DNA of 64,000 nucleotides from Anagrus nilaparvatae. Lineage: Eukaryota > Arthropoda > Insecta > Hymenoptera > Mymaridae. The notes under the pieces were generated by a model. It was not told the DNA's origin and searched no databases. It saw nothing but the letters and a program-made list of their open reading frames with translations. Positions 11,000 through 58,268 of the stretch are shown piece by piece (position 1 is the stretch's first letter; the number at the start of each line of letters is the position of its first letter). The stretch lies in NCBI GenBank assembly GCA_022575985.1, contig JAKSXM010000107.1:6014001-6078000 (forward strand). Reading direction: 5' to 3'. The position numbers and the translations under genes were made by a program.

Positions 11000-11015
11000 G
11001 GCCCTGAAAAGGGCC
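11000..11015 (-). promoter_or_regulatory. histone 3' stem-loop, H2B relic
   Basis: On the minus strand this reads GGCCCTTTTCAGGGCC, a 6-bp stem with UUUC loop that fits the animal replication-dependent histone 3' end recognised by stem-loop binding protein. It lies 24 nt downstream of the stop codon of the H2B tail fragment at 11040-11102. Confidence 0.85.
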
Positions 11016-11039
11016 GATTGAATAATTCTTAATTTTTGC

Positions 11040-11102
11040 TTATTTGGAGCTTGTGTACTTAGTGACTGCTTTGGTGCCTTCACTGACAGCGTGCTTAGCA
11101 AG
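11040..11102 (-). pseudogene. histone H2B C-terminal fragment
   Basis: Minus-strand codons give the last 20 residues of H2B (LAKHAV...YTSSK) and a TAA stop, identical in protein to the two intact H2B genes at 51.7 and 53.5 kb. Homology stops abruptly upstream, so only the tail and its 3' stem-loop remain. This shows that the histone cluster, or a copy of it, once reached this far left of neur. Confidence 0.85.
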
Positions 11103-12550
11103 AGAGTAAAAGACATTTTCTAATATACGTGATTTGATTGGTTATTAAAAGTGGCGCGCGCATAACCTAACTAAATTTCTCTAAAAATTTAAATTATAAA
11201 AATATTATTTTTTCTCACTTATACTTAAATTGCACAAAGGCAAATAAATACATAAACACATTAACTAAAAATCCTCATTAAACTTATTATATATTTTAAA
11301 AATAAATACATAATTAAAAAATGAAGCTAAAAAGTATAATAATAACAAACAATAAACGTTAAAATATAAAAGTAAACAAAGCATATCGCTATTATAGTGC
11401 AGAAAATGTATAAATTTTCACTATATTTACTTTATCTCTCTCTCTCACATACCACAATTATATAATTCACTGTATGCGCATTTATTTTAGTATGAAAATC
11501 ATGTGTATGCATGCATAACAAGTTAGCTTTAATATTATAATACAAAAGGGTACCTATATTATCGTAAAAATTATGCTCTAATGATTATAAATATTTCGTT
11601 TTTTATTAACCAGTTAGTTAGTTGTATTATATTGTCATTTTACTAAATTATTTATCTATATAGACACGTGTCAGTAACACTAAAAAACATATGGTTACGT
11701 TAACGGGGGGTTTTCAAAGTCGTAATCATCAGAAAATGGGATATCACCTGCAAAAAAGAGGGTGGCTTAGCTTTATTTTTTTTTATTCTTATTTTATTGT
11801 ACTTTTTTTATTGTTATTAGACTAATAAGAGAAAATTTGTAGGGTGGTATTTTTATACGCGAGGCTAATAAATGAAATTTACGAAATTATGCATCAACAC
11901 ACTAGGTATAAAAAGGAAGCTACAAGTGGTGTTTTATTCTGAGCGCAACCCTACGCTTTTTTTTTAACTTTTGACTTTTTATTGTCGACGCTTATGTTAT
12001 GCATTTTAATAAATAGGACTTTAATGAGATAATTTATTTATTTATTTTTTCTGCTAAGTCAAATTTTTATTATTTCGAAATAAAAATATTTTTATTTAAT
12101 TAAAAATTTGACCGTACAAAAAAATTTTTTTTTTATTATATGGAAAATTATAATCTATTTTATGCTTTGTAATTCTGGAAACTCGTGCGTGAATATTATC
12201 TACAGCTTTTGAAATAAGCTCGAGTAATAATTTTTTATTCCGCCGGTGCGGCGATGCTTGAATTTCACACCTTTGTTATTTATCATAATATTTATCATGT
12301 ATATTTTTGAAATTTAAATAGAAAAATAGTTGGTTGGTGAAATTTAAATTTTTAGAATTTTTTTAAATTTTTGGTTAAACAAAAACTGGAAATGAACTCA
12401 GGAAAGAGCGGATTAGTTTTCTTTGTTTTTAATTATTTTACCTTGAAATAAGTGGTGCTCAAATCGGTTCTTTAAAAATATTTAAAAAGCCCGAAGATGA
12501 CCACCTCTTAGCAGTAAGAATTGAATGAAATTACGTTTTAAAATTTTGTT
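11103..12550. other. AT-rich spacer, no gene seen
   Basis: No coding frame of note. It contains a TC tract near 11433-11446. The last 50 bp before the next stem-loop resemble the corresponding flank of gene D near 18.8 kb. Confidence 0.5.
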
Positions 12551-12566
12551 GGCCCTGAAAAGGGCC
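12551..12566 (-). promoter_or_regulatory. histone-type 3' stem-loop of gene A
   Basis: GGCCCTTTTCAGGGCC on the minus strand, 50 nt after the stop codon of gene A. An additional small hairpin (ACTTGAT/ATCAAGT, 12586-12609) sits between stop and stem-loop. Confidence 0.85.
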
Positions 12567-12616
12567 GATTGTTAATATTTAACAAACTTGATAATTTTTA
12601 AAATCAAGTGTATCAG

Positions 12617-13261
12617 TTAAATGATAGTGCAGAGTTTTTGGTTCGCCCTGAACCACGGCTTATTTCGGATTTCTTGTTGAATCTCCTTGGACATGTGTCT
12701 ACCGTATTTTTGGAAATTAATCATAAATGCTTGGGTAACCAGTTTTCTCAGCTTGCTAACATTTACTGTTTGTCCATGGTCATCGAGAACACTACTTTCC
12801 ATCCAAGAAGATTCCTCTTCCCACCAGGTGTCGATCAACCAAAGGAGAGCTTTACTCAGAAATAATTTGCCGTTTTCAAGTTCTTTGTTGGATGCATTAA
12901 GTTGACTGTTGATTTTGAAAAATTCCAAAATTTCTTCATCTTCTTTAAGCATGACCTTGGAGAGGTTTGATTTTCCAAAGATATAATTCAACGTGTTTCT
13001 GCATAACTCATGGGGTATGGTATCGCCATGAGGAGCAAAAATTAAATACTTCATGTTCGTTAAGCAATTGAACATGAATTTAATCAAATGCACTTGAGTA
13101 TCGGACATCAAAAATATTATTTCTAATAAATTTGCAGAAATAAACCATCTTAATTTCTCAAAGTTTTCAACTTGATCTGAAAACTTTTTATATTTCAGAG
13201 AGTATCTGATGTCTTGAATTATCGTAGAAATTTCTCCGGGAGTATCGATTATAAGCTTCAT
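12617..13261 (-). CDS. CaaX-box protein with histone-type 3' end (gene A)
   Basis: Intact, intronless frame of 214 codons. I do not recognise the family; no known domain is apparent. Shared landmarks with genes B-F are an IRYS motif near residue 20, LMSDTQV near 55, an LLWLIDTWW block in the second half, LRKLVTQ, a GRHMSKE block and a basic tail ending in CTII. The C-terminus fits a CaaX prenylation signal, so membrane attachment is inferred. I chose the Met at 13259-13261 because it aligns with the starts of B, C and D; the upstream in-frame ATG at 13316-13318 overlaps the TATA box and is unlikely to be transcribed. This is the most divergent copy. Confidence 0.75.
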   Translation of the reverse strand: MKLIIDTPGEISTIIQDIRYSLKYKKFSDQVENFEKLRWFISANLLEIIFLMSDTQVHLIKFMFNCLTNMKYLIFAPHGDTIPHELCRNTLNYIFGKSNLSKVMLKEDEEILEFFKINSQLNASNKELENGKLFLSKALLWLIDTWWEEESSWMESSVLDDHGQTVNVSKLRKLVTQAFMINFQKYGRHMSKEIQQEIRNKPWFRANQKLCTII

Positions 13262-13317
13262 GATGAATATTTGACGATTTCTCCAAACGTACTGAGTTTT
13301 TTGTCTCTTAGTACTCA

Positions 13318-13363
13318 TATTTATAGTCTTTGGAAGTATTTAAATTCTTTTAAATGAACCAAT
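13318..13363 (-). promoter_or_regulatory. TATA and CCAAT boxes of gene A
   Basis: On the minus strand TATAAATA is at 13318-13325 and ATTGG (inverted CCAAT) at 13359-13363. The TATA box is about 57 bp before the chosen ATG. Spacing matches the promoters of C, D, E and F. Confidence 0.6.
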
Positions 13364-13958
13364 AAAAAAAAGGATTTAATTTTCTTTAAAATTTTTAGAT
13401 GCGTAGAAATGTAAAAGGAGCCTTTGTTAGCGCAAAGACTTAAGCTGTGAGGATTAAAATCCGGAGTGGGGATGTTGATTATCTTTTTAGAAATATTTAA
13501 ATATTTTTTTTGTTGTTCTTTTCAATTTGTTTTATAATTATTCAAGTCTTAAAAAAAAAGTTCTAGCCGAATTTAATACATTTTTGAGTTTTTGTAAACT
13601 GAAAAAAAATTCGGTTATTGTAAATGGCCTTCGGACAACCTGCGAAGTGAACAAAAATATTTGTATACACTCCGTGGATGATACGTATTTGGGCTTTAAA
13701 CTTCCTAACAGTATAAATCTAAATGGTTTCAAAAGGTAGTCCATGAAAAATTTGCCCCTCTCCCCCTTTGAATGCACACGATTATGTTTTTATGTTTCAA
13801 ATTTCAAACAAAATCATCAATTTTCTTTGAATCAAAATTTTTAGATTTATACTATGGTTTAAGATATTTAGGCCAATTTCTTACTCGCACATGAATTCGA
13901 TGACATTAAAAGTTACATTCATGAAAAAAAAAGGAATCAGATCATTTTTATCGCAATC
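13364..13958. other. spacer between gene A promoter and orphan stem-loop
   Basis: A 70-codon plus-strand frame (13527-13739) has no recognisable domain. By position this is where a divergent histone partner of gene A would have been, but no histone-like residues were found. Confidence 0.45.
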
Positions 13959-13974
13959 GGCCCTTTTCAGGGCC
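13959..13974 (+). promoter_or_regulatory. orphan histone-type 3' stem-loop
   Basis: GGCCCTTTTCAGGGCC on the plus strand with no recognisable gene upstream on that strand. Its 5' flank (CAGATCATTTTTATCGCAA) is shared with the orphan loop at 18683. Confidence 0.75.
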
Positions 13975-14359
13975 ATAAATTTTTTCAAACCTAATTTTTA
14001 TACTACTTATACACCAAGAATATCTTAAAAATGGTGCTATTTTATTTTATTTTTTTAAATATTTTTCTAAGTAAAAACCAATTATTCAATTTGCTCAAAG
14101 AGTTTAAATGGAACAGAAATTTGCATGCAAGAGCTAAATCTATAATTTATCCTTTGGTTAATAATTAATTGTAGAGTATCAATTACTATCAATTCTTGAA
14201 TAACCTTAGTATGAGTATCTTTAGATAAACCACGAATTGACAACCTCTTGATCATAATATGCTCTTGGCAGTATCAACAACGGACATACTTTATATAAAT
14301 AATATAAAGTATATTCGTTCATAGTATGCTTTGTTGAAATTACGTTAGATAAAATTGGT

Positions 14360-14375
14360 GGCCCTGAAAAGGGCC
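14360..14375 (-). promoter_or_regulatory. histone-type 3' stem-loop of gene B relic
   Basis: GGCCCTTTTCAGGGCC on the minus strand, 48 nt after the stop codon of the broken gene B. The auxiliary hairpin is at 14397-14416. Confidence 0.8.
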
Positions 14376-14423
14376 GTTTGCTATAAAATGTAACTAACTT
14401 GATATTTCAATCAAGTCTAACAG

Positions 14424-14977
14424 TTAAATTATGGTACAGTGTTTAATCTTCGCTTTGTAGTACCATAGTTTACGGCATACTTGTTTTTGAATCTCCTTGG
14501 ACCACTCCTTGGACATGTGTTTGCCATAATTTTTGAAATTGTCTACGAATTCTTGTGTAACAAGTTTCCTCAGCTGTTTAACGTTTACTAAATGTTCATT
14601 TTCATTTTCAATGTTACTTTTCATCCACGGAGCATCGTTTTTCCACACAATGTCAATTAGCCTTACCAGCAAATTACTCAAAGTTCGTTTGCCGCTTTCA
14701 TAAGCATTGTTCGATGAATTTATTTGCGTGTCTAAGGAGCAAAAATTAAATAATTCAATTTATTTATACATTCAAACAGAAATCGTACTAAAAAGACTTT
14801 AGTATGAAACATCATAACTAATATTTTCGACACATATCTATGAAGTTCCCAACATAATTCATGAAAATCATCAGAATAGTCAGATGAAAATATCATGTAT
14901 TCTATCGTCTCCAGAGAATATCTGATATCCTCAATAATCAAAGAAATTTCTTCTGGAATGCCAACTGTTCCATTCAT
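14424..14977 (-). pseudogene. CaaX family gene B, internal deletion
   Basis: The N-terminal part (from ATG at 14975-14977, MNGTVGIPEE...) aligns with C and A up to the LIFAP stretch, where a TAG stop follows at about 14732. The downstream part (to 14424) resumes in another frame around residue 140 of the family and runs to HCTII and stop. Roughly 50 codons are missing between the two halves. The tail also carries a short in-frame duplication (SKEWSKE). Promoter (TATAAATA, 15038-15045), auxiliary hairpin and 3' stem-loop are kept. Recent inactivation is likely; a shortened product cannot be excluded. Confidence 0.75.
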
Positions 14978-15037
14978 GATCAATATTTGACAACTTTAAC
15001 GACTGTACTGAGTTTTTTTATTTTTGAGTACTGTCAA

Positions 15038-15045
15038 TATTTATA
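15038..15045 (-). promoter_or_regulatory. TATA box of gene B relic
   Basis: TATAAATA on the minus strand about 60 bp before the B start codon. The CCAAT position is degenerate (CTAAT). Confidence 0.5.
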
Positions 15046-15140
15046 ACCCTAAGAGATTTTAAAATAATATAAAATAAACTAATCAACAAAAGATTTCATT
15101 TTATTTAGAATTTTTAAATGCAGCATGGGTAGGAGACTGG

Positions 15141-15732
15141 AGTAAAATTCGACATGTGAATGTCTTTTAGTGTGATGGTTACTCGTTTAGCGTGAATGGT
15201 GCAAAGATTGGTGGAGTAAAATTCGACATGTGAATGTCTTTTGGCATGATGGTTACTCGTTTAGCGTGAATGGTGCAAGGATTGGTAGAGTAAAATTCGA
15301 CATGTGAATGTCTTTTGGCCTGATGGTTACTCGTTTAGCGTGAATGGTGCAAGGATTGGTAGAGTAAAATTCGACATGTGAATGTCTTTTGGCCTGATGG
15401 TTACTCGTTTAGCGTGAATGGTGCAAAGATTGGTGGATTAAAATTCGACATGTGAATGTCTTTTGGCATGATGGTTACTCGTTTAGCGTGAATGGTGCAA
15501 AGATTGGTGGAGTAAAATTCGACATGTGAATGTCTTTTGGCATGATGGTTACTCGTTTAGCGTGAATGGTGCAAAGATTGGTGGATTAAAATTCGACATG
15601 TGAATGTCTTTTGGCATGATGGTTACTCGTTTAGCGTGAATGGTGCAAAGATTAGTGGAGTAAAATTCGACATGTGAATGTCTTTTGGCAAGATGGTTAT
15701 ACGTTTAGCGTGAATGGCGCAAAGATTGGTAT
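15141..15732 (-). repeat. 74-bp x 8 tandem array from histone H3 C-terminal codons
   Basis: Eight units of exactly 74 bp, starting at 15141, 15215, 15289, 15363, 15437, 15511, 15585 and 15659. On the minus strand each unit contains the H3 codons for [13 protein letters not shown] followed by a non-H3 stretch (HMSNFTP). The unit length is not a multiple of three, so the array cannot be read as one continuous frame. The rightmost unit joins a recognisable H3 body, which marks the array as an expansion of the end of that gene. Confidence 0.9.
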
Positions 15733-16010
15733 CTTCAAAAAGACCAACAAGGTAAGCTTCGCTAGCTTCTTGAAAAGCCACGACAGCTGAGCTTTCGAAA
15801 CGTAAGTAAGTTTTGAAATCTTGAGCGATTTTTCTGACTAAGCATTGAAATGGTAATTTTCTGATTAACAATTCTGTACTTTTTTGATAACGACGGATTT
15901 CTCCAAAAGCAACCATTCCAATACTGTAACAATGAGGTTTTTTTACTCCACCAGTTGCAGGGGCACTCTTACGTGCTTTGGTTGCCAATATTGTTTTCGT
16001 GGGGCTTTGC
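15659..16010 (-). pseudogene. degenerate histone H3 relic
   Basis: Minus-strand translation shows H3 from about residue 13 to residue 124 with many substitutions (for example [12 protein letters not shown] in place of [12 protein letters not shown]) and a frameshift near residue 19. After KDI the frame continues into array sequence rather than the H3 end [11 protein letters not shown]. One of the two adjacent Ala codons in ATKAARKS is deleted, a change shared with the 98-bp arrays elsewhere. It lies upstream of gene B on the same strand. An open frame of about 120 codons survives but does not encode a functional nucleosomal H3. Confidence 0.8.
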
Positions 16011-16411
16011 TTTTTTTTCTTTTTAGGTTTGGGAGTTTCCTCCCTAGTTTTCTACTGCGGGGCCTTACATTATTAATTGTATAACTGAGATTTTTGTCAA
16101 ACTCCTTGGGACTAAAGTGAAAATTATAATTTTTAATTAGCAAATTTGCATATAATTTTTATAACTTTAAGGAGTTACTTATGGAGACACAAACGGTATC
16201 GCTGTTTATCTCCCCTTTTAAATTTTATTTTAGAACAGTTTGTATCTCGCATAATAAATTACATAGTTTTGCGAATTTTATAAAATTCGCCCATAATTAA
16301 GATACGCGAAAAAAGTAAATAAAACATGGAAGCTTCATTTTTATCCACGTGACGTAAAAGTGAGAAAGAGGCAAGTAGATAATTTTGATACGCACACGTT
16401 ATATCGCAAAC
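16011..16411. other. spacer before orphan stem-loop
   Basis: No gene seen. Homologous in inverted orientation to the sequence right of gene F; the left edge of the inverted duplication is near 16270. Confidence 0.5.
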
Positions 16412-16427
16412 GGCCCTTTTCAGGGCC
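16412..16427 (+). promoter_or_regulatory. orphan histone-type 3' stem-loop
   Basis: GGCCCTTTTCAGGGCC on the plus strand without an upstream gene. Counterpart of 42494-42509 in the inverted duplicate. Confidence 0.75.
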
Positions 16428-16839
16428 ATATTATTTTGATTCGAAGTAAAATGAATTATTTGGTCGCTAATTATGAATTGCAGGGTCTCAATGGTTAAAA
16501 TTGAATAAAACAATGGTAAATAATTAGCAACATAAAATAATTAGCGAGTATATCTAAAATAATTAGCTTTTAAAATTTTAAATCAAAATAAAGAAAATGT
16601 TAAAAGATAATTTTTTAATAAATTCTAATTTATTAAAATATGAATCCATGCTCATGTAGTATTTTTGTTGTAATGTAATTTACAGAAATATTAAAAAAAA
16701 GAAATAAATTTTAATAATCACAAATTATTTTATGTGCAAAGAGGTTCAAATTTTTGGAATAGAGAAGATGTTTGCAAGTTGAGTACCTCAAGATTCCGTT
16801 GATCGTATGATTTTGTTGAAATAAGTTGAATATTATGTT

Positions 16840-16855
16840 GGCCCTGAAAAGGGCC
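16840..16855 (-). promoter_or_regulatory. histone-type 3' stem-loop of gene C
   Basis: GGCCCTTTTCAGGGCC on the minus strand, 48 nt after the gene C stop. The auxiliary hairpin ACTTGAT/ATCAAGT is at 16877-16896. Confidence 0.85.
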
Positions 16856-16903
16856 GATTGGTATAAAATTTAACTAACTTGATATTTTAATCAAGTGCAA
16901 CAG

Positions 16904-17560
16904 TTAAATTATGGCACAGTGTTTTTTGTTTGCTTTGTACCACCGTTTACCATAAACTTCTTTTTGTAACTCCTTGGACATGTGATTACCGAATTTTTTG
17001 AAATTAACCATGAATTCTTGTGTAACAAGTTTTCTAAGCTGTTTAACGTTTGCTGTACGTCCTTTTTCATTTTCAATACTACTTTCCATCCATGGAGAAT
17101 CGTTGTCCCACCAAGTGTCAATTAGCCATACTAATAATTTGCTCAATATTAGTTTGCCGGTTTCATGTGCGTTGTCCAATGAATTTGTTTGCATGTTACT
17201 TTTAAAAAAACTATGCATGTCTTCGTCTGGTTTCAACATAACTTTTGCTATATTTGGTTTATGTAAAATATATTCCAAAGTATATTTGCAATAGTTATGC
17301 AGTTTGGCATTGCCATAAGAACCAAAAAGTAGAAGGTTCAATTCAGTTAAACATTCAAATAGAAATCGTACTAAAAATACTTGAGTATCAGACATCAAAA
17401 CTATTATTTTCATCAAATTTCCACAAAATACCCAACGTAATTTATGAAAATTATTAGAATAAGCAGATGAAAGTATCATGTATTCTTCCGATTCTAGAGA
17501 GTATCTGACATTTTCAATCATCAAAGAAATTCTTTCTGGAATGTCAACTCTACGATTCAT
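16904..17560 (-). CDS. CaaX-box protein with histone-type 3' end (gene C)
   Basis: Intact, intronless frame of 218 codons starting MNRRVDIPERIS. It shares with A and D the VRYS motif (about residue 20), FCGNLMKIIVLMSDTQVFLV (about 45-64), FLFECLTEL, a VMLKPDED block, LLVWLIDTWWD, LRKLVTQEFM and a basic end KANKKHCAII. CAII fits a CaaX box, so prenylation and membrane targeting through lipid plus basic residues are inferred. No known domain is recognised. Composition suggests a mainly helical protein; no signal peptide or clear transmembrane segment. A degenerate H3 relic lies directly upstream on the same strand. The frameshifted duplicate F at 41.4 kb is very similar. Confidence 0.8.
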   Translation of the reverse strand: MNRRVDIPERISLMIENVRYSLESEEYMILSSAYSNNFHKLRWVFCGNLMKIIVLMSDTQVFLVRFLFECLTELNLLLFGSYGNAKLHNYCKYTLEYILHKPNIAKVMLKPDEDMHSFFKSNMQTNSLDNAHETGKLILSKLLVWLIDTWWDNDSPWMESSIENEKGRTANVKQLRKLVTQEFMVNFKKFGNHMSKELQKEVYGKRWYKANKKHCAII

Positions 17561-17595
17561 GATGAATATTTGACAGTTTTAGTTTTTAGTACTTA

Positions 17596-17641
17596 TATTT
17601 ATAACCCTGAGAGATTTTAAAATGATTTAAAATAAACCAAT
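17596..17641 (-). promoter_or_regulatory. TATA and CCAAT boxes of gene C
   Basis: TATAAATA at 17596-17603 and ATTGG at 17637-17641 on the minus strand. The same arrangement precedes D, E and F, which supports a short leader and histone-like transcription. Confidence 0.6.
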
Positions 17642-17719
17642 CAACAAAAGGTTTATTTAGAATTTCTAAATGCAGAGCGGGTGGGAGACTGGTGGCAGAA
17701 ACCTGTTCGTGTAAACTAG

Positions 17720-18214
17720 ACTAAGCGTTGAAAAGGCAATTATCTTAACTTTTGGTAACAACTGCCTTCGCGTTTCTCTAAATAGGTACGAGTCTGGCCT
17801 GTAACGAAAAATTTTTTCAATTTCACCAGTTGCAGGGGCACTTTTACGAGCCTTGGTTGCCAGTTGTTTTCGTGGGACTTTGCTCGAGGCCTTGCCTTAT
17901 TAATTGTAACTGAGATTTTTTCACCAGTTGTAGGGGCACTCTTACGAGCCTCGGTCTCCAGTTGTTTTCGTGGGGCTTTGCCCGTGGCCTTGCCTTATTA
18001 ATTGTAACTGAGATTTTTTCACCAGTTGCAGGGGCACTCTTACGAGCCTCGGTCTCCAGTTGTCTTCGTGGGGCTTTGCCCGAAACCTTCCCTTATTAAT
18101 TGTAACTGAGATTTTTTCACCAGTTGCAGGGGCACTCTTACGAGCCTCTGTCTCCAGTTGATTTCGTGGGGCTTTGCCTTAATATTTGTAACTGAGATTT
18201 TTGTCGATCTACTA
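17720..18214 (-). repeat. H3 relic with 98-bp x 4 tail array
   Basis: 17720-17822 resembles the middle of H3 (REIRRYQKS to KLPFQRLVR) in degenerate form on the minus strand. Four 98-bp units follow, starting at 17823, 17921, 18019 and 18117. Each carries the H3 tail codons for [20 protein letters not shown] plus a spacer with TTAATTGTAACTGAGA. One Ala of ATKAARKS is missing, as in the relic at 15.9 kb. 98 is not a multiple of three, so no long frame is kept. Confidence 0.85.
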
Positions 18215-18316
18215 GGGTTTGGAATCCAAAGTATAATCTTTAATTAATTAGCAACCTTGCACATAACTTTTAGGAGTTAATAATTGCTAACCTTATTTTT
18301 TCCATTTTTTCTAATC

Positions 18317-18332
18317 GGCCTTTTTCAGGGCC
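18317..18332 (+). promoter_or_regulatory. orphan histone-type stem-loop variant
   Basis: GGCCTTTTTCAGGGCC on the plus strand: one C-to-T change turns a stem pair into a G-U wobble, so the hairpin can still form. No gene upstream. Counterpart of 40494-40509. Confidence 0.65.
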
Positions 18333-18682
18333 ATCTTTTTTATTTGAGTGAAAATAAAATGTATTAATTGGTCGCTAAATATAAATTTCAGGATTTCAAA
18401 GATTAAAAATTAGTATTAAACTCTCAATTTTTCAAAAACAACCCGATAAGGAGTAGGTTCTTAAAATATTTTATAAAATAACAACTTTTGGGTAGCTGCG
18501 CGTTTTTTAAATCGGTTTTTATGAATTTGGAGGTCTTGTGCTTAAGTATACTTACTTATAAAGCTAAATTAAATTTTACAAATTTGATAAAATAATGAGC
18601 TGTAAAAAGGTATGCAAAAACTTAAGAAAAAAAATTACGTCTTTTGTGAAAAGGAGGCAAGCAGATCATTTTTATCGCAAAC

Positions 18683-18698
18683 GGCCCTTTTCAGGGCC
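18683..18698 (+). promoter_or_regulatory. orphan histone-type 3' stem-loop
   Basis: GGCCCTTTTCAGGGCC on the plus strand, converging on the gene D stem-loop 122 bp away. The 350 bp upstream contain no gene. Counterparts are at 40128 and 42782. Confidence 0.7.
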
Positions 18699-18820
18699 AT
18701 CTGTGTTACCAATCGACTTTTTTCATCGTAATAGAGAAGCTGCAAGCCTCCAGAATTAAGTATCTCTCTCGGTATCGTTGGTAGTATGATTTTGTTAAAA
18801 TTACGTTATAAAAATTTGTT

Positions 18821-18836
18821 GGCCCTGAAAAGGGCC
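18821..18836 (-). promoter_or_regulatory. histone-type 3' stem-loop of gene D
   Basis: GGCCCTTTTCAGGGCC on the minus strand, 48 nt after the stop of D; auxiliary hairpin at 18858-18877. Confidence 0.85.
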
Positions 18837-18884
18837 GATTGGTATAAAATTTAACTAACTTGATATTTCAATCAAGTGTAACAG

Positions 18885-19547
18885 TTAAATAATGGTACAG
18901 TTTTTCTTGTACGCTTTGTACCATGGTTTGGTAATAACTTCTTCTTGCATCTCCTTGGACATGTGTTTCCCGTACTTCTTAAAGTTTGTCATGAATTTTT
19001 GGGTCACCAGTTTCCTCAGCTTCTTAACGTTCACTTGACCTTTTTCATTTTCAACGTAACTTCTCATCCATGGAGATTCTTTGTCCCACCAAGTGTCAAT
19101 CAGCCACACAAGTAATTTACTTACTATTAATTTGCCGTCTTTAAGTGCATTGCCTGATGATTTAGTTCGCATGTTGCTCCCAAAAAAATTGTGCATATTT
19201 TTATCTGAATTCAACATAACCTTTTCCATTCTTGGCTTTTGCAAAATAGAATTCAAAGTAATTTTATAGTAGTTATGGAGTTTTATATGATAAGCTTCAA
19301 TAGAAGGATGATCCGAAATTGAAAAATCCAATTCAGTCAAACATTCAAATAGAAATTGTACCAAAAAAACTTGAGTGTCAGACATCAAAACAATTGTTTT
19401 CATTAAATTTCCACAAAATACTCGTTGAAACCTTTGGAAATTGATGTAATAACCATTTGTAAGCGTATAATATTCTGGCGTCCTGGAGTATCTGACATGT
19501 TCAAACAAGGAAGGATCTTCTGCTAGCTTTTGAATTGCACGATGCAT
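18885..19547 (-). CDS. CaaX-box protein with histone-type 3' end (gene D)
   Basis: Intact, intronless frame of 220 codons starting MHRAIQKLAEDP. The N-terminus differs from A-C (VRYSRTPEYY), while the core FCGNLMKTIVLMSDTQVFLV, LLVWLIDTWWD, LRKLVTQKFM, GKHMSKE and the basic CaaX tail KAYKKNCTII are conserved. Function unknown; prenylated, probably membrane-bound product inferred. Its duplicate E at 39.3 kb is nearly identical but has lost the CaaX end through a 10-nt deletion, so D is the only intact copy of this subtype here. Confidence 0.8.
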   Translation of the reverse strand: MHRAIQKLAEDPSLFEHVRYSRTPEYYTLTNGYYINFQRFQRVFCGNLMKTIVLMSDTQVFLVQFLFECLTELDFSISDHPSIEAYHIKLHNYYKITLNSILQKPRMEKVMLNSDKNMHNFFGSNMRTKSSGNALKDGKLIVSKLLVWLIDTWWDKESPWMRSYVENEKGQVNVKKLRKLVTQKFMTNFKKYGKHMSKEMQEEVITKPWYKAYKKNCTII

Positions 19548-19599
19548 GATGAATTTTCAACGATTTCAAATCCTACTGGATTATAAATTTCAGTTCTTA

Positions 19600-19645
19600 T
19601 ATTTATAACCCGCAGAGGTCTCAAGCATTTAAAACAAGAACCAAT
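19600..19645 (-). promoter_or_regulatory. TATA and CCAAT boxes of gene D
   Basis: TATAAATA at 19600-19607 and ATTGG at 19641-19645 on the minus strand, about 53 and 94 bp before the ATG. Confidence 0.6.
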
Positions 19646-19699
19646 CAAAAAGAAGGTTTTTTTTAAAAATTTTTAGTTGCAGCGCAGCATGAATAGTGC

Positions 19700-19870
19700 A
19701 GCGGCGAAGACCGTAATTAATATTTTTTTTCTTCTCAGCAGCAAGAAATCACGTGTTTCCCGGCCACGGCGTGATTATAAAACAAGCGTTTTATAACCAC
19801 TGATGAAAAAAAATTATGTTTTGCTCTCGGCCATAAAAAAAGAATGTCCCAGATCGCAAAGTAAAATAGA
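19700..19870. repeat. relic of GC-rich foldback element
   Basis: Contains CACGTGTTTCCCGGCCAC and a CTCGGCCATAAAAAAAGAATG stretch that match the foldback element at 36327-36752. It sits at the outer edge of the inverted duplication. Confidence 0.55.
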
Positions 19871-39288: not shown

Positions 39289-39954
39289 ATGCATCGTGCA
39301 ATTCAAAAGCTAGCAGAAGATCCTTCCTTGTTTGAACATGTCAGATACTCCAGGACGCCAGAATATTATACGCTTACAAATGGTTATTACATCAATTTCC
39401 AAAGGTTTCAACGAGTATTTTGTGGAAATTTAATGAAAACAATTGTTTTGATGTCTGACACTCAAGTTTTTTTGGTACAATTTCTATTTGAATGTTTGAC
39501 TGAATTGGATTTTTCAATTTCGAATCATCCTTCTATTGAAGCTTATCATATAAAACTCCATAACTATTATAAAATTACTTTGAATTCTATTTTGCAAAAG
39601 CCAAGAATCGAAAATGTTATGTTGAATTCAGATAAAAATATGCACAATTATTTTGGGAGCAACATGCGAACTAAATCATCAGGCAATGCACTTAAAGACG
39701 GCAAATTAATAGTAAGTAAATTACTTGTGTGGCTGATTGACACTTGGTGGGACAAAGAATCTCCATGGATGAGAAGTTACGTTGAAAATGAAAAAGGTCA
39801 ACTGAACGTTAAGAAGCTGAGGAAACTGGTGACCCAAAAATTCATGACAAACTTTAAGAAGTACGGTCCAAGGAGATGCAAGAAGAAGTTGTTACCAAAC
39901 CATGGTACAAAGCGTACAAGAAAAACTGTACCATTATTTAACTGTTACACTTGA
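39289..39954 (+). pseudogene. CaaX family gene E, frameshifted C-terminus
   Basis: Near-identical to D for about the first 193 codons. A 10-nt deletion at about 39866 shifts the frame, so the GKHMSKE block and the CaaX tail are replaced by an unrelated basic tail ending FNCYT. The original NCTII codons are still present in another frame. Promoter, auxiliary hairpin (39949-39968) and histone stem-loop remain. Either a recent pseudogene or a non-prenylated variant; I favour pseudogene. Confidence 0.75.
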
Positions 39955-39989: not shown

Positions 39990-40005
39990 GGCCCTTTTCA
40001 GGGCC
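39990..40005 (+). promoter_or_regulatory. histone-type 3' stem-loop of gene E
   Basis: GGCCCTTTTCAGGGCC, 35 nt after the shifted stop and about 50 nt after the ancestral stop. Confidence 0.8.
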
Positions 40006-40509: not shown

Positions 40510-40639
40510 GATTAGAAAAAATGGAAAAAATAAGGTTAGCAATTATTAACTCCTAAAAGTTATGTGCAAGGTTGCTAATTAATTAAAGATTATACTTTGA
40601 ATTCCAAACCCTAGTAGATCGACAAAAATCTCAGTTACA

Positions 40640-41354: not shown

Positions 41355-42013
41355 ATGAATCGTACAGTTGACATTCCAGAAAGAATTTCTTTGATGATTG
41401 AAAATGTCAGATATACTCTCTGGTATCGGAAGAATACATGCTACTTTCATCTGCTTATTCTAATAATTTTCATAAATTACGTTGGGTATTTTGTGGAAAT
41501 TTGATGAAAATAATAGTTTTGATGTCCGATACTCAAGTATTTTTAGTACGATTTCTATTTGAATGTTTAACTGAATTGAACCTTTTACTTTTTGGATCTT
41601 ATGGCCATGTCAAACTGCATAACTATTGCAAATATACTTTGGAATATATTTTACACAAGCCAAATATAACAAAAGTTATGTTGAAACCAGACGAAGACGT
41701 GCATAGTTTTTTTAAAAGTAACATGCAAACAAATTCATTGGACAACGCACATGAAACCGGCAAACTAATATTGAGCAAATTATTAGTATGGCTAATTGAC
41801 ACTTGGTGGGACAACGATTCTCCATGGATGGAAAGTAGTATTGAAAATGAAAAAGGACGTACAGCAAACGTTAAACAGCTTAGAAATCTTATTACACAAG
41901 AATTCATGGTTAATTTCAAAAAATTCGGTAAACACATGTCCAAGGAGATACAAAAAGAAGTTTATGGTAAACGTTGGTACAAAGCAAACAAAAAACACTG
42001 TGCCATAATTTAA
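41355..42013 (+). pseudogene. CaaX family gene F, N-terminal frameshift
   Basis: Duplicate of C. From ATG 41355 it reads like C for about 19 codons (MNRTVDIPERIS...VRY), then two inserted bases near 41412 shift the frame. The remaining 191 codons are open from an internal ATG at 41438 through to HCAII and stop. A shortened protein from the internal start is possible, but the first ATG would be used normally, so I call it a pseudogene. Auxiliary hairpin at 42021-42040. Confidence 0.7.
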
Positions 42014-42061: not shown

Positions 42062-42077
42062 GGCCCTTTTCAGGGCC
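42062..42077 (+). promoter_or_regulatory. histone-type 3' stem-loop of gene F
   Basis: GGCCCTTTTCAGGGCC, 48 nt after the F stop codon, as in gene C. Confidence 0.8.
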
Positions 42078-49020: not shown

Positions 49021-49036
49021 GGCCCTGAAAAGGGCC
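49021..49036 (-). promoter_or_regulatory. histone 3' stem-loop of H4 (copy 1)
   Basis: Minus-strand GGCCCTTTTCAGGGCC, 31 nt after the H4 stop. Confidence 0.93.
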
Positions 49037-49067
49037 GATGGTTTTCTTTTGTTCGGATTTAAAAAAA

Positions 49068-49994
<927 letters not shown>

Positions 49995-50028
49995 ATCATA
50001 TTAAAGGAAGCATATGTATTTCCCAACC

Positions 50029-50044
50029 GGCCCTTTTCAGGGCC
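50029..50044 (+). promoter_or_regulatory. histone 3' stem-loop of H3 (copy 1)
   Basis: GGCCCTTTTCAGGGCC followed by AACA, the same downstream context as most CaaX family genes. Confidence 0.93.
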
Positions 50045-51070
50045 AACATTTATTTAAAGCGTTAATAATAATTTTATTCAGACAAATATAAGCATAATTT
50101 ATAGCAGAATGCAATTTACTTTATGACTGCAGGATATGAATTATATAAATTGCTACAATATAATAGTATTTACTTATGCGATTTTGAATCCTTATCAGAA
50201 TTTTTAGTTTGGATACTTTTTGATTGATTGATTGATGTTTTTATTTATACAGAATTGTACAAAATTAAAGATACAGAGTTAAATGTAAATAGATAATACT
50301 GTGCAAGCACGTTAATTTACAAATGTTTTAAAAAATGAAATTAAAGTAAAAGTATAAATCCTAGTTAATATTGGAAATACTATAATACTAAATACTATAC
50401 TTATTACTTTTTCCCAAGAAATATTTATGAGTTTTATTTTATTTTTAATAAAAATTTTAATACCCGTAAAATACTTTCTGGTTATAATTATTATAATTAG
50501 AAAATTGCCAAGAATAGTCTTATATACCGTGTAAATAAAATCGAAATAAAAAATTACTATATTATTATTGTTTATTATTTTTATATTATAAAATAAAATT
50601 ATTATTTATTTACTCTAATTACCTCATTGTAAATTAATGTGACTACGGAATTTGAAAATTTATTATTTATTTGTAATATCATAATTTTTTATAATTAAAA
50701 AAATTATAAAATCAAGCGACCCATGTACTTGAAAATGAAGACTTAGGTAGTTATTTTTGTAAAAAACAAATAAAATATGAGAAATTAAAAAAAAAAAAAA
50801 AACTATTCAAACAAAATAAAAATACCTGACAGTACTCAAGGAATTCTTTAACGTTAGAGAAAAAAATTCTTTTACTATATCTAAATTTGTGTGGAACTCA
50901 GGGAAGTTTGTTTTAACATTTAAAAAAAAACTCGAATAATTAAAACTTTAGGCCTGCGGTGTACTTGGATAACAATTTAGAAATGCATAGCGGTAACTAT
51001 ATATTTGTCTGTTGGAAAAACAATTGCAATAGAAATGAAAATAGTATGTATTCGTTAAAAAAAATATGAT
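50045..51070. other. spacer, no gene seen
   Basis: AT-rich; GATT repeats near 50223-50237 and homopolymer runs. No coding exon. Confidence 0.6.
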
Positions 51071-51086
51071 GGCCCTGAAAAGGGCC
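51071..51086 (-). promoter_or_regulatory. histone 3' stem-loop of H2A (copy 1)
   Basis: Minus-strand GGCCCTTTTCAGGGCC, 27 nt after the H2A stop. Confidence 0.93.
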
Positions 51087-51113
51087 GATTGATCATGAAG
51101 CAATAATGATTTT

Positions 51114-51488
51114 TTATGCTTTTTTCTCTGTCTTCTTAGGAAGAAGAACTGCTTGAATGTTAGGAAGAACACCACCTTGTGCAATAGTAACTCCGGAGAG
51201 AAGTTTGTTTAATTCTTCGTCATTACGGATGGCCAATTGAAGGTGACGAGGAATAATTCTGGTCTTCTTGTTGTCACGGGCAGCATTTCCTGCCAATTCA
51301 AGAACTTCGGCGGCTAAATATTCCATTACTGCTGCTAAATAAACTGGAGCTCCTGCGCCTACACGTTCAGCGTAGTTACCTTTTCTCAATAAACGATGGA
51401 TTCTACCAACTGGGAATTGAAGACCAGCTCTGCTAGAACGAGTCTTTGACTTAGCCTTGCTCTTGCCTCCTTTGCCACGTCCTGACAT
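51114..51488 (-). CDS. H2A: histone H2A (copy 1)
   Basis: 124 codons, canonical H2A ([20 protein letters not shown] ... [10 protein letters not shown]). It lacks the SQ(E/D) tail of H2A.X and the features of H2A.Z. It dimerises with H2B, whose gene is divergent. Same protein as copy 2, but many synonymous differences. Confidence 0.97.
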
Positions 51489-51703
51489 TGTATAATATTT
51501 TTACGTAGTTGCTTCGAAACAGAAAGAAGTAAAAACAATTTTTGAGAAAAAAAACTCTATCTTGTTAATTCAGATAGATTACAGCGCACCAATAAGAGAA
51601 CGTATTAAGTTTTGATTAGTGGGGAGAGAAACGCAGAAAGTTACAAAACTGAGTATTTTTTTAAAAAAAATATTACACTCGACTTTATCGTTTGAACGTT
51701 AAG
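51489..51703. promoter_or_regulatory. divergent H2A-H2B promoter (copy 1)
   Basis: Block 51563-51625 (TAATTCAGATAGATTACAGC, then GCACCAATAAGAGAACGTATTA, with CCAAT at 51589-51593) is almost unchanged in the second pair (53400-53460), which suggests shared control elements. Confidence 0.65.
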
Positions 51704-52078
51704 ATGGCACCTAAAGCAAGTGGAAAGGCTGTAAAGAAAGCCGGCAAGGCTCAGAAAAATATCAGCAAAGGCGGTGACAAGAAAAGGAAGCGTAAGAGGA
51801 AGGAATCCTACGCCATTTACATTTACAAAGTACTTAAGCAAGTACATCCCGATACCGGAGTTTCCAGTAAGGCTATGTCTATTATGAATTCTTTCGTAAA
51901 TGACATTTTTGAACGTATTGCTGCTGAATCTTCCCGTTTGGCTCATTACAACAAGAGATCAACCATCACCTCCCGGGAAATCCAAACTGCTGTCCGTCTC
52001 TTATTGCCCGGAGAACTTGCTAAGCACGCTGTCAGTGAAGGCACCAAAGCAGTCACTAAGTACACAAGCTCCAAATAA
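51704..52078 (+). CDS. H2B: histone H2B (copy 1)
   Basis: 124 codons, canonical H2B ([19 protein letters not shown] ... VTKYTSSK). The initiator is the Met in AAGATGGCACC; an upstream MNVK extension is not expected. Intronless with 3' stem-loop 21 nt after the stop. The nucleotide sequence is nearly identical to copy 2, especially the second half. Confidence 0.97.
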
Positions 52079-52099
52079 AAAATTAAAAATTATTCAATC

Positions 52100-52115
52100 G
52101 GCCCTTTTCAGGGCC
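52100..52115 (+). promoter_or_regulatory. histone 3' stem-loop of H2B (copy 1)
   Basis: GGCCCTTTTCAGGGCC followed by ATCA. Confidence 0.93.
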
Positions 52116-52905
52116 ATCAGATTTTTATAACGAAAAAAACTATTAAATTACATTTTTTTTTATTATACTTAAAAATATTACCTACCCAAAACCTAAAATT
52201 TTTATTTGTTTATTCAAAGGTTCGCAGGTTTTCGGCCTTTTATCATTTAATTTTTTTACTTGCCATAGTTACAACTTACTTTGTGAGCAATTATTTAAAA
52301 TTCTACTAGATAATTACCGGTTAAAAGTTCAGATGTTTTTTTTGTCATTTAACTCAATGAAACAAAAATTGACATAATTAGCAATTATTTTTAATAACAC
52401 TAAGTAGACAAAAAAAGTTTCTTTGCTTAAGTATATTGATTAATAATTAATATTTCGTATCTCGTCCTTTGGCTCGACTCTTACAAAATATATGGGACTT
52501 TCTTTGGTCAAAAAGTTAAAAATTTTAGGTCGTTCAAGTTCTGGTGCAAAAAACGTATCGTGAATATTATCACTTATAAGATAATATTTATTAAATTTTT
52601 GAATTTTAATCAACGAAAACCATTAATCCATGTACTGGTATGAGTACCTAACATGTTCTTAGGCTTAATCTAGGCAATTTTTGTGCGATAAAAGTTTTTT
52701 ATAAAATTAACAAATTAACCCTTGAAAGCAAAAAACTAAAATATATTTTCAAAGGCTATTTTCTTTTATTAAATATCCTGAATTTTTTTTTTCTTAATAA
52801 TAACGTAGCTTATAAAAATTTTCATAGTAAAAAAAGTGCTAATTGTTTAACGAAATTAAATTTAAAAAAGTAATAAACAATGTTTCGTACGTTTAAAAAA
52901 CTGTT
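52116..52905. other. spacer, no gene seen
   Basis: AT-rich sequence between convergent H2B and H2A genes; no coding exon recognised. Confidence 0.6.
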
Positions 52906-52921
52906 GGCCCTGAAAAGGGCC
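52906..52921 (-). promoter_or_regulatory. histone 3' stem-loop of H2A (copy 2)
   Basis: Minus-strand GGCCCTTTTCAGGGCC, 22 nt after the H2A stop. Confidence 0.93.
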
Positions 52922-52943
52922 GATTGATTATGTCAAAAATATT

Positions 52944-53318
52944 TTATGCTTTTTTTTCAGTCTTTTTAGGGAGAAGTACTGCTTGAATATTGGGAAGTAC
53001 ACCACCTTGAGCGATAGTGACACCAGAAAGAAGTTTGTTCAATTCTTCGTCGTTACGAATGGCCAACTGAAGATGACGAGGAATGATTCTGGTTTTTTTG
53101 TTGTCACGGGCTGCGTTTCCTGCCAATTCAAGAACTTCAGCAGCCAAATATTCCATTACAGCGGCTAAGTAAACTGGAGCTCCAGCACCAACGCGCTCAG
53201 CGTAATTGCCTTTTCTTAATAATCGATGAATTCTACCGACTGGAAACTGAAGACCAGCACGGCTTGACCTGGTCTTTGACTTAGCCTTGCTTTTTCCTCC
53301 TTTGCCACGTCCGGACAT
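52944..53318 (-). CDS. H2A: histone H2A (copy 2)
   Basis: 124 codons, protein identical to copy 1 with numerous third-position differences, so purifying selection rather than recent copying keeps the protein. Divergent from H2B copy 2. Confidence 0.97.
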
Positions 53319-53538
53319 AGTGTAATATTGTTATGTAGTTGCTACGAAAAAGAACGAAGTAACAATATTTTTTTTTTTCGAGAAAAAATCTTAATCTTGT
53401 TAATTCAGATAGATTACAGCGCACCAATAAGAGAACGTATTAATTTTTGATTAGTGGGGAGAAAAACGTAGGAAGTTACAAAACTGAGTATTTTTTAAAA
53501 AAAATAATTATTCTCGATTTTACCTTTTGAACGTTAAG
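53319..53538. promoter_or_regulatory. divergent H2A-H2B promoter (copy 2)
   Basis: Contains the same conserved CCAAT-bearing block as copy 1 (53400-53460). Confidence 0.65.
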
Positions 53539-53913
53539 ATGGCACCTAAAGCAAGTGGAAAGGCTGTAAAGAAAGCCGGCAAGGCTCAGAAAAATATCAG
53601 CAAAGGCGGTGACAAGAAAAGGAAGCGTAAGAGGAAGGAATCCTACGCCATTTACATTTACAAAGTACTTAAACAAGTACATCCAGATACCGGAGTTTCC
53701 AGCAAAGCCATGTCTATTATGAATTCTTTCGTAAATGACATTTTTGAACGTATTGCTGCTGAATCTTCCCGTTTGGCTCATTACAACAAGAGATCAACCA
53801 TCACCTCCCGGGAAATCCAAACTGCTGTCCGTCTCTTATTGCCCGGAGAACTTGCTAAGCACGCTGTCAGTGAAGGCACCAAAGCAGTCACTAAGTACAC
53901 AAGCTCCAAATAA
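53539..53913 (+). CDS. H2B: histone H2B (copy 2)
   Basis: 124 codons, protein identical to copy 1. Only a handful of synonymous changes, clustered near 53670-53710, separate the two genes. This fits gene conversion or recent homogenisation limited to H2B. Confidence 0.97.
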
Positions 53914-53937
53914 GCAAAAGTTAAAAATTATTCAATC

Positions 53938-53953
53938 GGCCCTTTTCAGGGCC
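53938..53953 (+). promoter_or_regulatory. histone 3' stem-loop of H2B (copy 2)
   Basis: GGCCCTTTTCAGGGCC, 24 nt after the stop. Confidence 0.93.
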
Positions 53954-55324
53954 ATCAATTTTTTAAAACAAAGAATATACGTTACGTTCTGTATCTCCAT
54001 TTTATAATAAAAGGTTGCATGTAAACTTAATTCGTGTAACTTTAATTTTTCACGAAATCATTGAATATATGTAGCTAAATTTCAATGTCAATTTTTAATT
54101 AAATTATTTTTTATGCTTAACCATTCAATTCAAGGTTAGATAATCTATCGTTACAAAATTATTGTAGATCTTTTTGTCTTTGAAAATAATAATTTAATAA
54201 ACTAGAGTTTGGTTTTAATTTTGAATATATATATATATTGAAATAAATGTTTATTACGGAAGTATATTCGTGGAGTAATTACAGAGAGATATTTTTCCGA
54301 CCTCTCTTCCTTTCGCGAGTTTTGTATAAGAAATTCGAAAATATTTTTTTTTATGATTCTGTAAATAATCATCTAGGAGCTCTGAAATTTTTTCTACGAG
54401 TTTTTATAATAATAAATTATATTTAACCAAATATTATCTGTTTTGTAAATTTTTTTTTTTAAGCCTTTAAAATCTCTTACGTGAATACACAAGTAATTTA
54501 ATAAGTACGTATTTTATAAACAAAACAGATTTTGATAATATTCTGTTAAAATATAATTTATTATTATGAAAACTCGTGGAAAAAATTTTAGAGTTCCTAG
54601 ATGTTTGTTTACAGAAATATAAACAAAACATTTTGGAATTTCTTATACAATACTCGCGAGAAGAAGAGATTCTCGCGCACTCATGGATACACTACTTACT
54701 AAAAGTACTACCTATAAAAATTTTTAGTTACTCCCGTATAGATCAAAGGCCTCAATCAATATATACATTTTTAAGAAAAATTAGTTTTTTTTTAATAATT
54801 ATGGGCTTATTCGTCGCGAAGTTATCTATCGGATGATGCAAATAATTTTTTATTATCACGTGTAATTTGAAAAATTGCATGGCTCATCTAAAAGGTCATC
54901 TGCATTGAGAAAAAATTTTACATGTATTTCTAAAAATAATACTGGAAGAAATGGCTCATCTGCAGATTTTTCTCCTATGTTATAACCGCGCAACGCATGT
55001 ATTTCTAAAAATAATGCATTAGAAGTTACAGCTGCATTAACATGGTTTTTTAGCAATCATTTGTTAATTTGGATTTAAAAAAAAGTAGTAAATATAAGCT
55101 GAAGGATCACTGCTTAACTAATCATTTAAATTATCTAACGGGTACATTATTTACATTTATAAAAACGAAAATTGTACCGCAAAAATCTAGCTTTTGATTA
55201 TTCTGTATAATTCCTATCTTTTATTTAGTTATGTTAAAATTAATAAATATATTGTCAATTTTTGAAATTTAAAAAATTGTTAGTAAATATTAGCGAATAT
55301 CGCACTACGTAAGAAAGACATGTT
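53954..55324. other. spacer with an inverted repeat, no gene seen
   Basis: Apart from the inverted repeat at 54308-54660, nothing assignable. The stretch 54895-55045 contains CATGTATTTCTAAAAATAAT twice, about 85 bp apart, in a short minus-strand frame that I could not identify. Confidence 0.5.
54308..54660. repeat. imperfect inverted repeat
   Basis: Arms of about 140 bp: CTCGCGAGTATTGTATAAGA-type sequence near 54648 is the complement of that near 54310, and both arms include AATAATAAATTATATTTTAAC-like ends around a loop of about 70 bp. Likely an old foldback element. Confidence 0.6.
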
Positions 55325-55340
55325 GGCCCTGAAAAGGGCC
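55325..55340 (-). promoter_or_regulatory. histone 3' stem-loop of H4 (copy 2)
   Basis: Minus-strand GGCCCTTTTCAGGGCC, 29 nt after the stop. Confidence 0.93.
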
Positions 55341-55369
55341 GATTGTTTACTATTTGTAGATTTGTCAAA

Positions 55370-56295
<926 letters not shown>

Positions 56296-56333
56296 GTTAC
56301 AAAACTGAAAAAAAAAAATACTGCACACCAATC

Positions 56334-56349
56334 GGCCCTTTTCAGGGCC
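56334..56349 (+). promoter_or_regulatory. histone 3' stem-loop of H3 (copy 2)
   Basis: GGCCCTTTTCAGGGCC followed by AACA. Confidence 0.93.
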
Positions 56350-57606
56350 AACATAATTTTTTCAACGTTTAAATAATATTCTAACATCTAAATAATTTTA
56401 AATTATTCTTTATTAAGCAAGTAGTTATTTTGAAATTAAATTAAGTTTTTAATGTTGTTATAATAATTTTTTTGTAAAATCTGATGAAGCTAAAATATAA
56501 TAGATATGCAATCTTTCTTCAGTCAAGAATACGCATTTTGTGTGGCTGGACGTTTCAAAAATGCAAAAATATTTTTTCCATTATTGATTCTGGATTTTTG
56601 ATTCTTAAAAAACTCGATGCTTAAATAGAAAATAAAAAAGAAAATATATATTTATATATATTACTTATTATTTATATATATTATTTTTTATATATTTAAT
56701 ATATAAATACATATATATTAGAGTGGACCTATCTTTGGACTTTTTTGGAAAAACTTTGCTCCCCGGGGTTTTTTTGTGAAGTTTTGGTCATAAAAAGTTC
56801 CCAGTTCCAAGGATTTTGCTTTAGCCTTACAAAAACACGTGCCTGTAACCACATCAATTTTCCCATTTAAATAACATGGGAATTTTGAATTTTTAGCTAT
56901 AAAAATTTTCACAAAAGCCAAAAAGCAAAATCCTTGGAACAGGGAACTTTTTATGACCAAAACTTCACAAAAAAACCCAGGGAGCAAAGTTTTTCCACAA
57001 AGTCCAAAAATAGTTCCACTCTAATATATATATTAAATACACAATTCTTTTGCATAGGAATTGAATAAAATTAAATTATTTATCAAAAGTAAATTATTTT
57101 CTTCAGATTCGTATGGTTTCTGCTGTGAAAAGGTGCAAATTTTAAATTGTCAATAGATAATTCTAAAACAAAGAATCATCAATTACTTTTTATTAAAAAA
57201 ATATAATTTGGAGCTTTTAACTGTTTACTACAATAAACAAATTAATACTCATCAAAATAATTCATAGTTCAACCCCAATTCTGGTCAGTAAAGTATTAAA
57301 TTATTTTTACTTTTAAAAATATTTCATTATTTGTATGTTAGCCGTATATTAAAAAGAAAAAAAATGGCGCATAATTAATTCATTACTCGCATTCAATAGG
57401 CAAATCTTTGGTTCGAAAAAGGTATCTGGTTAAATAGAAGAAAAGTACTTACGATACCTGCAGTGCTGAACAAAAAATTTATTACTCACTTATGTTTTGA
57501 ATAAACAATCAGCAAGTTATGAAAATTGATATTACTTAATACTTACTTAAAGTAGAAGGTATTTATAATTATGCAATAGTTGTTTATTTGTTTAAAAATT
57601 GTTGAT
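56350..57606. other. spacer with a foldback element
   Basis: A TATA-rich stretch near 56640-56720, the foldback element at 56717-57025, then AT-rich spacer. No gene. Confidence 0.6.
56717..57025. mobile_element. 309-bp foldback element
   Basis: ATTAGAGTGGAC at the left end and TCCACTCTAAT at the right. The arms of about 105 bp are inverted copies containing TTTTTGGAAAAACTTTGCTCC and GGTCATAAAAAGTTCCC. It sits in a TA-rich target. No coding capacity; MITE-like. Confidence 0.75.
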
Positions 57607-57622
57607 GGCCCTGAAAAGGGCC
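57607..57622 (-). promoter_or_regulatory. histone 3' stem-loop of H1
   Basis: Minus-strand GGCCCTTTTCAGGGCC, 46 nt after the H1 stop. Confidence 0.93.
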
Positions 57623-57668
57623 GATTGTAGCATTGTCCTAAAAAGGACAGATTTAAAATGATTAATAT

Positions 57669-58268
57669 TTATTTTTTTGCTGATTTAGCTTTTGGAGCTG
57701 CCTTTTTGGGCTTTGGAGCTTTTGGCTTAGCTGGAGCTTTTGTTTTTTTTGCCTTTGATGGAGATTTAGGTGCAGTAGGTTTTGTGGCTTTGACTTTTTT
57801 TTCAGCAGCTGGTTTTTTTGCTGCTGCGGATTTTTTGGCTGCAACAGGTTTCTTAGTAGATGTTGGTTTCTTGACAGCGGCTGTTTTCTTACTTGCTGCT
57901 GGTTTTTTAGTTGCAGGTTTCTTTACTGGCTTCTTTTCAGCAACTTTACTGCTAGCCAACTTGAATCTGCCTGATGCTCCAGTACCTTTTGACTGTACCA
58001 ATTTGCCCTTGGTTACTGCAGATACCAAATACTTCCTTATGTAAATGGCATTTTTCTCAACGTCTATTTTGTAGTTAGCAGCAATATATTTCTTGATTGC
58101 CTGTAGAGAAGATCCTTTAGTTTCTTTTAATTCACTTATGGCTTTATTGACCATATCAGATGTTGGAGGATGTTCTGCCTTGCTTGCAGCTTTTTTTGCT
58201 GCTGGTTTCTTCACCTTCTTCGGGGAAACTGATGCCGGGACGGCTGGTGCTGCTGCTGTATCTGCCAT
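57669..58268 (-). CDS. H1: linker histone H1
   Basis: 199 codons from ATG at 58266-58268 ([13 protein letters not shown]). Short Ala/Pro/Lys N-terminal tail, winged-helix globular domain about 33-106 ([36 protein letters not shown]), then a long Lys/Ala/Pro tail. H1 binds linker DNA and compacts chromatin. Intronless, TATA promoter and 3' stem-loop, single copy here at the end of the cluster. The hydrophobic frame on the opposite strand is a shadow. Confidence 0.96.

Follow-up and report, generated by a model that had tools for sequence, protein, structure and literature searches.

A non-histone gene family with histone-like stem-loops and predicted prenylation tails in a degenerate histone array of Anagrus nilaparvatae

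According to a 2024 preprint, no cellular mRNAs other than those of replication-dependent histone genes lack poly(A) and terminate in this type of stem-loop (PMC11702538). In C. elegans, the hairpin lies in a conserved stretch and is followed by a short element, possibly a downstream element (PMC1924863), while bdelloid H2A variants combine the stem-loop with a putative poly(A) signal (PMC2642717) and H2A.X mRNA features dual 3' ends (PMC7807067); all four sources are cited here from extracts. Among the matches listed from the open-licence PMC literature, a scope outside of which subscription papers fall, no non-histone family with a histone 3' end appeared. Here, we describe a family of six gene copies (A to F) in a stretch of 64,000 nucleotides from Anagrus nilaparvatae, which was analysed as a whole and is referred to as the window (positions count from its first letter). 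The exact 16-nt histone stem-loop is located 3' of the stop codon in 6/6 copies, and the three intact genes encode related non-histone proteins under purifying selection. In our view, it is fairly probable that a histone array took up a non-histone gene, or gave rise to it, and that this gene runs there as a histone-type transcription unit.

Gene copies, selection and the encoded protein

Three of the copies are intact and, being single open reading frames (ORFs), appear to be intronless, namely gene A (12617..13261, 214 aa, tail CTII), gene C (16904..17560, 218 aa, tail CAII) and gene D (18885..19547, 220 aa, tail CTII), all on the minus strand. Copy B (14424..14977, minus strand) survives as ORF fragments broken by a frameshift and a deletion, with its tail still reading CTII, whereas the plus-strand copies E (39289..39941) and F (41355..42013) carry a frameshift near the C end and near the N end, respectively. 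E is an inverted duplicate of D and F one of C, both within an inverted repeat of ~3.5 kb (16.3-19.8 kb vs 39.1-42.6 kb, 92-96% identical) on either side of a neuralized gene (ORF 32919-33929), and consequently they are not independent of D and C. A further small family fragment is found at 42602-42703. The ORF of gene A extends open upstream to 233 aa; the presence of an initiator-like CAGTA 32 nt past TATAAATA in this gene favours the second ATG (214 aa) over the longer start. Protein C is 52% identical to the 233-aa ORF of A and 61% identical to D.

Chance ORFs were ruled out as an explanation, the longest ORF among 100 Markov copies of 10501-20000 being 130 aa as compared to 214-220 aa in A, C and D. 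Likewise, a histone-derived protein could be dismissed, since the Pfam histone models leave A, C and D unmatched, in contrast to the H1, H2A, H2B, H3 and H4 of the same window. An earlier reading by a model that saw only the letters and their ORFs (hereafter the sequence-only reading) had proposed related non-histone proteins of 214-220 residues and broken copies at 14.4, 39.3 and 41.4 kb, which these genes and the copies B, E and F bear out.

The sequences of A, C and D bear the mark of purifying selection. The ratio of non-synonymous to synonymous change (omega, or dN/dS) was 0.36 for A-C (95% bootstrap 0.21-0.54), 0.29 for A-D (0.16-0.46) and 0.31 for C-D (0.20-0.48), with 977/1000 bootstrap values usable for A-D and 1000 for each of the two other pairs. 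In each pair, differences are greatest at third codon positions, and synonymous divergence (dS) amounts to ~0.8-1.4. A dN/dS near 1, the outcome which the sequence-only reading had named as contradicting it, was therefore not observed among these genes, the values being 0.29-0.36.

The proteins A, C and D have a mass of 25.4-26.3 kDa and an isoelectric point of 7.7-9.5, and a strong transmembrane stretch is absent (best 19-residue hydropathy 1.22-1.74). When the last stretch of each copy is read in its own frame, 6/6 end in C[T/A]II, and the net charge of the last 20 residues is +3 in A, +5 in C and +2 in D, in line with the basic residues followed by CTII or CAII that had been noticed from the letters. 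Geranylgeranyltransferase I (GGTase-I) modifies Caa[L/F/I/M/V], where X is usually leucine and at times isoleucine (PMC11304957); the C[T/A]II tails conform to this rule and are predicted to be prenylated, CTII and CAII as such being unnamed in the cited extract of that text.

Searches for relatives gave no clear hit to a known family in the Pfam, PHROGs, PDB, viral, prokaryote or protein collections, and such a hit had been the other outcome that the sequence-only reading named as contradicting it. In Pfam, the best result was APC1_C for D (expectation value (E) 0.013, 16 bits vs a cut-off of 22.9), to which a second search contributed nothing further, in PHROGs only weak ones were obtained (for D, phrog_33814 at E 0.0028, whose function is unknown; for A, phrog_1976 at E 0.27), and PDB sequences yielded none at E 1 in one search and a best E of 0.86 in another. 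Viral contigs contained no pattern match in one search and 23 stretches, 0 of them confirmed, in another, and none of the 15 stretches from prokaryote genomes was confirmed. The protein-collection search, which requires shared exact words, returned 1543 candidates with 0 at E 0.01 and 4909 candidates with 0 at E 10. In this same collection, the named organisms matched by the window's H1 were mostly insects (120 of 3067 rows); the top row reached 67% identity over 36% of the query and the highest identity among the matches listed was 78%, with none near-identical, and the species hence seems poorly covered. The earlier label "lineage-specific" is consequently in keeping with the missing relatives, which, at this coverage of the species, argue for it only weakly.

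The best structure model, that of C from 7 rows, consists of helices and a small beta-hairpin (predicted local distance difference test 68.7, predicted template modelling score 0.70). A structure search with this model gave no clear match, predicted viral folds reaching a best E of 0.88. A faint run of HEAT/MIF4G chains appeared at a level common for helical models and does not constitute evidence; SLIP1, an MIF4G protein and partner of the stem-loop-binding protein (SLBP), helps to translate histone mRNA.

Promoters and 3' ends

Alignment revealed upstream conservation spanning ~110-140 nt, with promoter blocks on the minus strand at 13262..13402 (A), 17561..17673 (C) and 19548..19685 (D). 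In 6/6 copies, a CCAAT box (ATTGGT; ATTAGT in B) and a 32-nt spacer are followed by TATAAATA, and both H4 genes of the window display ATTGGT, 36 nt and then TATATATA. In A, D and E, an initiator-like CAGTA is positioned 30-32 nt past the start of TATA; B has a first one at 13 nt and another farther on, and C and F are without it. The distance from TATA to ATG is 43-68 nt (43-64 nt in A, C and D), which implies a short 5' leader and seemingly intronless genes.

Downstream, the exact 16-mer occupies 12551..12566 (A), 14360..14375 (B), 16840..16855 (C) and 18821..18836 (D) on the minus strand as well as 39990..40005 (E) and 42062..42077 (F) on the plus strand. It is followed by ACCA in B and by AACA in all other copies, to which AACGTAA is added in A and D; a TTTTATAACGTAA stretch is also situated behind the stem-loop. 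The distance from stop to stem-loop is 50 nt in A, 48 nt in B, C, D and F, and 35 nt in E with its frameshifted stop, and these coordinates uphold for 6/6 copies the spacing of 48-50 nt (35 nt in E) given by the sequence-only reading. A scan for the 16-mer retrieved 24 matches at ≤3 mismatches, 22 of them exact, as compared to a shuffle mean of 0.11. Ownership of these stem-loops by neighbouring histone genes was ruled out for the family copies, each being on its own gene's strand just past the stop. Viral contigs, when scanned for the 16-mer, yielded 65 stretches, in which tblastn found neither a family match (E 0.01) nor a histone match (E 1e-5), an uninformative outcome.

Among A to D, the stem-loop is identical in 96/96 pairwise cells, and agreement at 4-fold sites is 12/25 for A-C, 11/26 for A-D and 23/36 for C-D (42-64%). 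Across the four copies A to D, identity is 81% from stop to stem-loop, 68% over the next 20 nt and 62% over the following 30 nt; the 33-38% seen farther out are taken as background. The conserved unit thus ends ~50 nt past the stem-loop, as expected for a gene closing with a histone downstream element. Between stop and stem-loop, all copies further retain a second hairpin (ACTTGAT...ATCAAGT), which was aligned at 12586..12609 in A, where the same stem encloses a longer loop, at 16877..16896 in C and at 18858..18877 in D (all minus strand). Its seven-base stem is invariant, leaving no covariation to count.

Genes and relics can be told apart by the bases 3' of the stem-loop. These read ANCA in 6/6 of the family copies and in 10/10 of the histone ends (an H2B fragment at 11.0 kb and the nine intact genes) vs 0/8 stem-loops that lack a gene, and ACG at +10 to +24 occurs in 4/6, 6/10 and 0/8 of these, respectively.

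The surrounding histone array

The window has a GC content of 29.5% and contains an intact histone block at 49021..58268, comprising two H4/H3 pairs, two H2A/H2B pairs and one H1, with the same stem-loop on each gene. The family copies A to F, by comparison, are situated amid the histone fragments of a degenerate array at 11-19 kb and 39-43.5 kb, which includes pieces of H3 and H2B. Here, an H2B 3' end stands alone at 10976-11102 (minus strand), consisting of the last 20 codons, the stem-loop and flank, and is 97.6% identical to the H2B at 53.5 kb. A tandem array with a 74-bp step (15138-15731) has a piece of an H3 pseudogene as its unit (H3 residues 105-128) and adjoins a larger H3 remnant at 15665-15988, while the arrays at 17821-18202 and 40624-41103, with a 98-bp step, repeat an N-terminal piece of H3 (H3 residues 14-34).

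Eight gene-less stem-loops (6 exact, 2 with one mismatch), all without ANCA, are oriented tail to tail with the family genes, four on the plus strand (13959, 16412, 18317 and 18683) and four inverted copies of these on the minus strand (40128, 40494, 42494 and 42782). Upstream of the four on the plus strand, histone matches are limited to the stem-loop and short weak pieces, and the ORFs of ≥30 aa that begin with ATG on the plus strand around them are short and unrelated. They are probably relics of lost histone genes.

Elsewhere in the window, the 3' UTR (untranslated region) of H1 features an additional hairpin, TGTCCTTTTTAGGACA, at 57634-57649 (minus strand) directly ahead of the standard stem-loop; a 6-bp stem and a loop of 4 nt give this hairpin the geometry of the histone signal. 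Foldback-type repeats, inverted or palindromic, were found at 36322-36752, 43523-43806, 47514-48746, 54303-54669 and 56711-57031 and are perhaps small mobile elements.

Interpretation and comparison with known systems

On balance, we lean slightly towards a non-histone family which is expressed wholly via the histone mRNA pathway, so that the amount of a prenylated membrane protein would follow DNA replication or the SLBP of the germline. In such a scheme, the CCAAT/TATA promoter would be transcribed, probably inside the histone locus body, SLBP would bind the stem-loop of the pre-mRNA, and the U7 snRNP (small nuclear ribonucleoprotein) machinery would cut after ANCA. What results could be a short mRNA that has neither introns nor poly(A) and persists chiefly during S phase or in germ cells rich in SLBP, its translation yielding a mostly helical protein of 25-26 kDa whose basic tail, ending in C[T/A]II, would be geranylgeranylated and place the protein on a membrane. 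As envelope growth accompanies S phase, the nuclear envelope is one guess for this location. The interpretation given in the sequence-only reading holds in part: the sequence shows a selected non-histone family with histone-like stem-loop, cleavage context and promoter, for which no known family was found, whereas the processing of its RNAs and their timing, as well as the prenylation, location and role of the protein, we infer. SLBP/U7 processing, the lack of poly(A) and the coupling to S phase or SLBP-rich germ cells are suggested in particular by analogy with histone genes, and a membrane-tethered protein with a supply tied to DNA replication appears as the likeliest reading.

Several observations weigh against this proposal. 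ANCA and ACG were picked only once the alignments had been seen, the ACG motif is absent from C and F, and excluding the inverted-repeat duplicates reduces the ANCA contrast to 4/4 vs 0/4 (Fisher 0.029). At its gathering score, Rfam RF00032 called 9 stretches in the window, accepting B alone of the six family copies next to 4/9 intact histone genes, namely H1, both H2B genes and the H2A gene at 51.1 kb, and four relics (three gene-less stem-loops and the H2B fragment); the gathering cut-off therefore cannot tell genes from relics here. Moreover, 6/8 gene-less stem-loops are letter-perfect, so that an exact 16-mer can evidently endure or undergo homogenisation where no gene exists. In all six copies, a first AATAAA also follows 269-543 nt past the stop, and read-through to poly(A) is thus possible. 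The genes could accordingly be real and selected, with mRNAs that are mainly polyadenylated downstream and a stem-loop which is array-inherited or used in some cells only, an alternative we regard as rather unlikely, yet as the most serious one. It would agree with exact stem-loops remaining where genes are gone, and the bdelloid H2A variants (PMC2642717) and the dual 3' ends of H2A.X (PMC7807067), as given in the cited extracts, provide precedents. However, conservation spans the stem-loop and ceases ~50 nt beyond it, before any AATAAA, and ANCA marks the family copies and is missing from the gene-less stem-loops. The AATAAA itself says little, because 7/9 intact histone genes here also have one within 600 nt of the stop.

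Half of the family copies (B, E and F) are broken, histone fragments occur throughout the array, and codons 1-190 of D and E differ by 5 non-synonymous and 1 synonymous changes (omega 1.22, not interpretable from so few changes). These features would also suit decaying duplicates in a dying histone array which lack a present function and owe their low omega to selection before function was lost. This appears improbable, as A, C and D are open over 214-220 codons at the synonymous divergence given above, a length well beyond that of the Markov copies, and as promoter and 3' end are conserved, too. Least probable is a viral or mobile-element gene that was domesticated and came to use the histone 3' signal for expression in dividing or germ-line cells; an orphan multi-copy protein, rapid turnover and a repeat-rich array would fit such an origin, whereas the viral contigs gave no match, PHROGs one weak match for D and the viral folds nothing convincing, and terminal repeats did not come to light around the unit, though no dedicated method was applied to find them.

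If the RNAs of this family truly end at the stem-loop, they would break the rule reserving this ending to histones, and a non-histone family that is under selection, occurs in several copies and carries the stem-loop signal would represent a natural exception. Such a family would allow one to test whether the pathway is open to borrowing, whether a position in the histone locus suffices to acquire it, and which non-histone protein needs a supply linked to DNA replication.

Rho/Rap GTPases and lamins are CaaX proteins with basic tails. The family resembles them in its C-terminal Cys-a-a-X behind basic residues and differs from them in that neither a GTPase or lamin domain nor a Pfam family was found. 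Like the bdelloid H2A (PMC2642717) and H2A.X variants, as described in the extracts cited, it departs from the standard set of genes with a stem-loop ending, although those are histones and the family is not. From the replication-dependent histone genes of Metazoa it is set apart by its non-histone product, by the second hairpin of its 3' UTR and by a distance from stop to stem-loop of 48-50 nt, as compared to 21-46 nt for the window's nine histone genes. With these same genes, the family shares the apparently intronless structure, the short 5' leader, the CCAAT/TATA promoter, the 16-nt stem-loop followed by ANCA and the location in a histone array.

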